Shown here piece after piece: positions 32,427 through 33,952 of a stretch of 64,000 nt of DNA. This stretch comes from Bacillota bacterium. Its GTDB lineage: Bacteria > Bacillota > DTU030 > DUMP01. Every line of letters starts with the position of its first letter. Within the stretch, counting starts at the first letter, position 1. Both the position numbers and the translations under genes were made by a program. The DNA lies in NCBI GenBank assembly GCA_030154105.1, contig JASKKP010000002.1:113667-177666 (forward strand), written 5' to 3'. Under the pieces are notes generated by a model. That model was not told the origin of the DNA and ran no database searches. It saw only the letters and a list, made by a program, of their open reading frames with translations.

Positions 32427-33200
32427 GTGAACCTACTGGAGAAAACCCGTACTCTCAATCGCCTGTTGCAAAAGTCGGCGGGGCACCCTGTCGACTTTGA
32501 CGAGATTTGTCACATCTTAAGCGAGCTTATCCAGGCCAACGTCTATGTGGTTAGCCGCCGCGGCAAAATCTTGGGCCATGCCCTAAAAGAGGGTTATCGG
32601 TGCGACGTGATGGAGGCCGACGTCCTTAAGGCCGAAAAGCTGCCGGGCGACTTCAATGACCGGTTGCTTCGGGTGCTCGATACGACCACGATGAAACAAG
32701 ATCCTGGGCACTGCGTTTTCGATGCCGAAGTAAGTTGCCTCTTACCTTCCCAGGAAGTGACCATCGTACCGATCAACGGCGCCGGCGAGCGGCTGGGCAC
32801 CTTGCTGGTGGCCAAGTTCGAGCTGCCTTTCACCGAAGAGGACCTCATCCTGGCCGAGTACGGGGCCACGGTGGTAGGCATGGAAATTCTCCGGGCGAAG
32901 AGCGAAGAGATAGAAGAAGAAGCACGCAAGAAGGCCGCCGTGCAGATCGCCCTCGGGACTCTGTCTTATTCCGAGCTGGAGGCGGTGGTGCACATCTTCG
33001 AAGAGCTGAACGGGCCGGAAGGGCTTTTGGTGGCGAGCAAGGTGGCCGACAGGGTTGGCATTACCCGTTCGGTTATTGTTAATGCCTTGCGTAAATTCGA
33101 AAGCGCTGGCGTCATCGAATCTCGTTCCTTGGGCATGAAGGGCACCTACATCAAGGTGCTAAACGACCGGCTTCTGGACGAGCTGAAGAAGATAAAGTAG
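32427..33200 (+). CDS. codY: GTP-sensing transcriptional repressor CodY
   Basis: N-terminal GAF-like region; C-terminal w[51 protein letters not shown]. Confidence 0.97.
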
Positions 33201-33217
33201 AGTTTTTGCCGGTGCCA

Positions 33218-33248
33218 GAGCCTCCTTCGTCTGGGAGGCTCTTTTTTT
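33218..33248 (+). terminator. Rho-independent terminator after codY
   Basis: GAGCCTCC-loop-GGAGGCTC followed by T7. Confidence 0.92.
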
Positions 33249-33272
33249 GTCCCCTGGTGCACTCTTAATTTC

Positions 33273-33281
33273 TGGTAAAAT
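33273..33281 (+). promoter_or_regulatory. Candidate extended -10 promoter for the flagellar operon
   Basis: TGGTAAAAT, no convincing -35; ~100 nt upstream of the GEMM aptamer. Confidence 0.4.
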
Positions 33282-33384
33282 CATACTGGCCAGCAGGAGT
33301 TTGGCTAAAGATGCCGAAAAAGGAAACTTAAGGGCGAGGAAAAGAGACAAGGCAACGGTCGAGCCTCATTCTGGCGGAACGAGC

Positions 33385-33477
33385 TGACAGCGAAAAAGGG
33401 CAAACCTGGCGAAAGCCAGGGACGCAAAGCCACGGGCCTGTAGCCTTAAGCCATGGCAGCCGGGCTGCCGCGCGTCT
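33385..33477 (+). ncRNA. Cyclic di-GMP-I (GEMM-I) riboswitch aptamer
   Basis: GGGCAAACC-tGGCGAAAGCCa-GGGACGCAAAGCCACGGGCCT...CCATGGCAGCCGGGCTGCC matches the GEMM-I consensus by eye; upstream of flgB. Confidence 0.93.
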
Positions 33478-33485
33478 GGCCGGAA

Positions 33486-33525
33486 ACCTCAAGTGGTCCT
33501 GCCAGCTGAGGTATTTTGTTATTTG
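33486..33525 (+). terminator. Possible riboswitch expression-platform terminator
   Basis: ACCTCA..GTGGtcctgCCAg..TGAGGT followed by aTTTTgTTaTTT, before the flgB RBS. Confidence 0.55.
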
Positions 33526-33541
33526 GCAAGGAGGTGGGAGC

Positions 33542-33952
33542 ATGCCTTTCGCCGTGTTTGCCGACGGACTGCTCGACAAGATTAGCCTCGGACTAGACTG
33601 GGCGGCCCTACGCCAGCGGGCTATAGCCAATAACCTGGCGAATGAGGATACGCCCGGCTATAAACGCCAGGATGTCTCCTTCCCCGAGGTTCTCCGCCAG
33701 GCCGAAGAAAGTGAGGCTCCGCATTTGCCTTTGGCCGTTACCGCCCCAGGGCACCTGGTGCCCAACGCACAACCAACTCTGATGGTTTATCGGGATGCCA
33801 GCACCAGCTATCGCAACGATGGCAACAATGTGGACATCGACGTGGAATCAGCTGAGCTGGCCAAGAACGCCCTTTATTATAATGCCCTTATCACTCAGGC
33901 AGCTCTATATCTGGCCAACCTGCGGCTGGTGATTAGCGAAGGGAGGCGCTGA
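33542..33952 (+). CDS. flgB: Flagellar basal-body rod protein FlgB
   Basis: ALRQRAIANNLANEDTPGYKRQDVSF. Confidence 0.96.
   Translation: MPFAVFADGLLDKISLGLDWAALRQRAIANNLANEDTPGYKRQDVSFPEVLRQAEESEAPHLPLAVTAPGHLVPNAQPTLMVYRDASTSYRNDGNNVDIDVESAELAKNALYYNALITQAALYLANLRLVISEGRR

Follow-up and report, generated by a model that had tools for sequence, protein, structure and literature searches.

The leader of the flagellar operon in the window (the whole stretch of 64,000 nucleotides that was analysed) is best explained as a class I c-di-GMP riboswitch that probably acts as an OFF switch by transcription attenuation, in the manner of Cd1 of Clostridioides difficile. A sequence-only reading of this leader had proposed a c-di-GMP-controlled terminator before flgB, which is supported and likely, but its assignment of a 5′ CCTCA/CTGGC strand as an anti-terminator helix enclosing the aptamer is not supported, and that pairing is probably incidental. 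All letters and coordinates quoted in that reading were found to be correct.

The codY–flgB gap and its aptamer

In the window, codY (32427-33200) is followed by a strong terminator (33217-33242) and then by flgB, flgC, fliE, fliF and fliG. flgB, the first gene of the flagellar operon, occupies 33542-33952 on the plus strand, as do all leader features given below, and is preceded by the Shine-Dalgarno sequence GGAGGU (33530-33535). A c-di-GMP-I aptamer sits in the codY–flgB gap, with only 68 nt between its end and the flgB ATG.

A homologue search across 399 genomes from the phylum, using 167 bases of the locus as query, gave a full-length match in three genomes only, the other genomes listed matching in the aptamer part alone. 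The same expression platform was present in only two other genomes, both of the genus, here termed G002 (L033, JASKLG010000033.1) and G001 (L005); it was not found in a pattern scan of viral contigs. GGDEF genes were present in all three congeners.

A promoter scan returned no plus-strand sigma-70 promoter, and the sole promoter-like candidate seen by eye upstream was the extended −10-like TGGTAAAAT at 33273-33281. Upstream of the aptamer, a stretch of about 78 bp (33265-33342) is nearly invariant across the three congeners, with conservation at about the level of the aptamer; no convincing promoter or regulator site was recognised in this block, TGGTAAAAT being an extended −10 resemblance.

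The GEMM-I aptamer, previously read at about 33385-33477, was confirmed at 33389-33473, where the covariance models RF01051 (c-di-GMP-I) and RF03167 (c-di-GMP-I-GGC variant) score 79.6 bits and 72.3 bits, respectively, both above their cut-offs (gathering cut-off 35 for RF01051; 59 for RF03167). Ligand-contacting positions were read by eye from the RF03167 alignment and the sequence, in GGCAAACC, CGCAAAGCC and CUGCC. The contacts, which we take to be G20, A47 and C92 in Vc2 numbering, are G, A and C in the window aptamer, all canonical, so that by its contact bases it would be an ordinary c-di-GMP-I aptamer, with c-di-GMP binding predicted as in that class. The RF03167 consensus reads CGCGAA, and its variant base (CGCgAA) is presumably the one that names the GGC class; the window stretch is CGCAAA, with A as the variant base. 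RF03167 was set aside as a ligand-variant label and the aptamer was filed under the ordinary class because the window has CGCAAA instead of the RF03167 consensus; RF01051 also gives more bits. On these bases, the ‘GGC’ label should not be taken as a changed ligand specificity.

The terminator-like hairpin and its conservation

A terminator-like hairpin of 10 bp (−12.7 kcal/mol; 33486-33512) starts 12 nt past the aptamer. It comprises a helix of 33486-33491 with 33507-33512 and an inner UGGU/GCCA helix of 33494-33497 with 33501-33504, followed by ATTTTGTTATTT as tail, with the U-rich tail AUUUUGUUAUUU at 33513-33524. The CCTCA (33487-33491)/TGAGG (33507-33511) hairpin with T-rich run of the sequence-only reading is thus borne out, its stem extending to 33486:33512. 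The classical terminator score of the hairpin is low (d about −22 to −30, reflecting a weak stem and tail) compared with +25 for the codY terminator, and the hairpin was not listed by a consensus terminator scan; hairpins after other GEMM aptamers range from d −29 to +25 on the same score.

The three-genome alignment is nearly invariant over the aptamer and its flanks (GAGCUGACAGCG, GCGCGUCUGGC), over the hairpin and over the Shine-Dalgarno sequence, and 29 of the 30 pair cells of the hairpin are kept. The hairpin pair 33489:33509 is changed on both sides, being U-A in the window and C-G in both relatives. This two-sided change is only suggestive of a maintained hairpin, the covariation being not statistical (with three sequences, 174 of 500 shuffles equal it).

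Two strands next to the aptamer could compete with this hairpin. On the 5′ side, the P1 strand with its extension (ACGAGCUGACAGC onward; 33379-33391) is invariant in the three congeners, and in G001 it is an alternative partner of the hairpin 3′ half. On the other side, the 3′ flank of P1 (GUCUGGCCGG; 33474-33483) carries, directly 3′ of P1, a third copy of CUGGC (33476-33480) that had been missed in the sequence-only reading. It can pair with GCCAG (33501-33505) and is a candidate anti-terminator strand; CUGGC/GCCAG is invariant in the three congeners, with no covariation.

At least 12 more distant genomes also have a GEMM aptamer before flgB, most of them with a terminator-like hairpin after it. 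Complementarity was compared for 40 GEMM loci with a terminator-like hairpin, taking the sequence from the aptamer 3′ end to the hairpin as the 3′ side and 60 nt as the leader. The hairpin was complementary to the 3′ side at p<0.05 in 12 of the 40 loci and to the leader in one (about 2 expected each); an initial set of 35 loci, which overlaps with these 40, had given 11 and 1. The stronger partner was the 3′ side in 36 of the 40 loci and the leader in four, including the window and G002. For the window's own 3′ flank, complementarity to the hairpin was not above that of shuffles (p 0.61). The 3′-side complementarity across GEMM loci is the Cd1 arrangement, of which the window is no clean example. 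The expression platform turns over, and aptamer and target stay.

Other GEMM loci were noted in the same survey. Among flgB GEMM aptamers, L082:2726-2900 and L108:2696 onward, one of them from a Thermincola MAG, have a long P3-arm insertion, with terminator and anti-terminator strands kept. GEMM-I aptamers also precede small HD_5 (HD-GYP-like) proteins, at 17-44 nt, in this genome and relatives (L002:821-1483, minus strand; L015:767-1456, minus strand; L016:1624-2295, plus strand) without a clear terminator, and translational feedback on c-di-GMP turnover is possible there. At L003:1501-1586, L012, L018 and L019, GEMM-I is directly followed by a hairpin and a T-rich tail before chemotaxis-receptor-like genes (that of L003 is an MCP by Pfam); therefore, the same signal may attenuate flagella and chemoreceptors alike. 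Tandem c-di-GMP aptamers, with two to three GEMM-like matches on the same strand at spacings of about 110-230 nt, occur at G196:C41:14308-14740, G143:C1:1929420-1929614 and G220:C12:4401-4595.

Proposed switching and its alternatives

In the ligand-bound state, P1 would stay closed together with both its flanks (33379-33392 with the stretch up to 33481), the hairpin 33486-33512 would form, and RNA polymerase would stop near 33513-33524, in the U-rich tail. In the unbound state, CUGGC 33476-33480 or the 5′ GAGCUG just upstream of the aptamer would pair with GCCAGC (33501-33506) in the hairpin 3′ half, and this P1-flank pairing would delay or prevent the hairpin, so that the operon is read.

The folding outcome for the window RNA depends on the assumed 5′ end of the transcript. 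For starts at 33289 and 33334, the hairpin had a probability of about 0.9 without an aptamer constraint and 0.8-0.9 with it, the enclosing helix reaching at most 0.09; the CUGGC/GCCAG pairing stayed below 1% at equilibrium. Because the hairpin reaches 0.8-0.9 at equilibrium whether or not the aptamer is held, any switching would need to be kinetic; none emerges for the window RNA from the folding model by itself. This indifference of the hairpin to the aptamer, together with the weak terminator score, would also suit a constitutive weak attenuator or pause site to which the aptamer is poorly coupled. We consider this unlikely, given that the three species conserve the aptamer and the platform jointly, with 12 nt between aptamer and hairpin, and that Cd1 provides a precedent for coupling.

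A shift of the OFF sign was seen in folds of the full G001 leader, where the hairpin rose from 0.24 to 0.79 once the aptamer was held; this sign is not robust because the apo hairpin was already dominant in a transcript with a different start and an earlier 3′ end. For some starts, the G001 hairpin strand found its alternative partner in the 5′ flank strand of P1 (CGAGCUGAC) or in the beginning of the leader.

According to the enclosing-helix proposal, the 5′ segment GCCUCAuuCUGGCGG (33363-33377) clamps 33499-33512 around the folded aptamer and blocks the terminator, giving an ON switch or higher basal read-through. The complementarity of this 5′ copy to the hairpin 3′ half is real and better than the two 5-bp helices first claimed, since GCCUCA/UGAGGU and CUGGCGG/CUGCCAG together make 13 bp (−21.7 kcal/mol); it is compatible with P1 and part of the minimum-energy fold of 33361-33525. 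By itself, the folding z-score of the whole region (−0.93) lends no support to a designed switch. An equal or better match arose by chance in 1.9% of 2000 dinucleotide shuffles and 3.5% of real window 90-mers for 90-nt leaders (roughly 2-3.5%), and in 0.6% of shuffled and 1.2% of real sequences for 39-nt segments. The match is mildly unusual but not compelling, and these figures are weak evidence because it was noticed after the fact.

In constrained folds of the two alternatives, the enclosing helix wins over the hairpin only for starts no more than about 10 nt from the 5′ segment. With the aptamer held, its probability was 0.007, 0.09, 0.74 and 0.93 for starts at 33289, 33334, 33355 and 33361, respectively, making it negligible unless transcription begins near 33355 or later. 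From 33361, where the coordinates of the sequence-only reading begin and which is the start most favourable to this model, it was dominant both without (0.72) and with (0.93) the aptamer constraint. The start-dependent trend was similar at 55 degrees and weaker at 65 degrees. An upstream GAGG (33336-33339), if transcribed, competes for CCUC. A local hairpin, moreover, is quicker to fold than a helix that closes over about 120 nt.

In G002, the nearest relative, the 5′ strand is unchanged and a substitution in its partner turns a U-A pair into U-G; the helix is less probable there than in the window at every start tested. In G001, 5 of the 13 pairs are lost and the 5′ segment is unpairable, with everything else kept, and the leader holds a complement to the hairpin strand no better than chance (p 0.34). 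The enclosing helix shows no two-sided change in the three genomes, and the covariation of the 5′ CCTCA/CTGGC segment on which the sequence-only reading had staked its proposal is absent as far as three genomes show. As far as visible, selection tracks the hairpin rather than the enclosing helix, because only the hairpin has a two-sided change and the 5′ strand is lost in G001. The leader is the stronger partner in just four of the 40 loci, the window and G002 among them, but leaders across the set are not enriched for hairpin pairing (1 at p<0.05). Taken together, clamping by the 5′ segment is quite improbable. That the leader's second copy of the terminator 5′ strand encloses the aptamer and overrides termination specifically in the window species and its nearest relative, with an ON sign or one set by the start site, is very unlikely; a start-site-dependent enclosing helix, if true, would make the sign of a riboswitch depend on which promoter is used.

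Translational control, with the platform hiding or freeing the flgB Shine-Dalgarno GGAGGU (33530-33535), for instance via ACCUC (33486-33490), is quite improbable, and this sequestration was rejected. ACCUC is complementary to GAGGU, and class I switches of V. cholerae do not work through termination (PMC6366702). However, G002 has ACCCC and G001 has CCCCC in this strand, so that the pairing is broken in both relatives, no folded state of the window RNA pairs ACCUC with the Shine-Dalgarno sequence, and the hairpin strands do not sequester it.

Comparison with known c-di-GMP riboswitches

Attenuation of the Cd1 type, the reading we favour, would add one more lineage, an uncultured Firmicute, to those where flagellar synthesis is probably under RNA-level control by c-di-GMP via the flgB operon. 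Cd1 lies in the flgB 5′ UTR of C. difficile and is an OFF switch (PMC9262584; PMC6366702), in which ligand-bound aptamer and terminator coexist and a rival anti-terminator uses the strand after the aptamer (PMC9262584). The window has this layout, with GEMM-I upstream of flgB and a terminator-like hairpin between them. It shares with Cd1 (Cdi-1-3) the aptamer class, the flgB operon as target, a hairpin with U tail before flgB and, as a candidate, a competing strand beside the aptamer; platform sequence and length differ, the window U tract is weak, and a ligand response is predicted for the window.

The pilM GEMM-I of Geobacter metallireducens, an ON switch for c-GAMP, is alike in aptamer fold and in transcriptional control, which is putative in the window, but there aptamer and terminator are mutually exclusive, whereas the window aptamer and hairpin can coexist, as in Cd1. 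Bc1 of Bacillus thuringiensis resembles the window in its class I aptamer, terminator-type platform and Gram-positive host; its platform is long with two terminators, whereas in the window one hairpin precedes a flagellar operon. Read-through in the presence of ligand is cited for the class I switch ahead of the B. thuringiensis cap gene, in contrast to the OFF sign proposed for the window switch.
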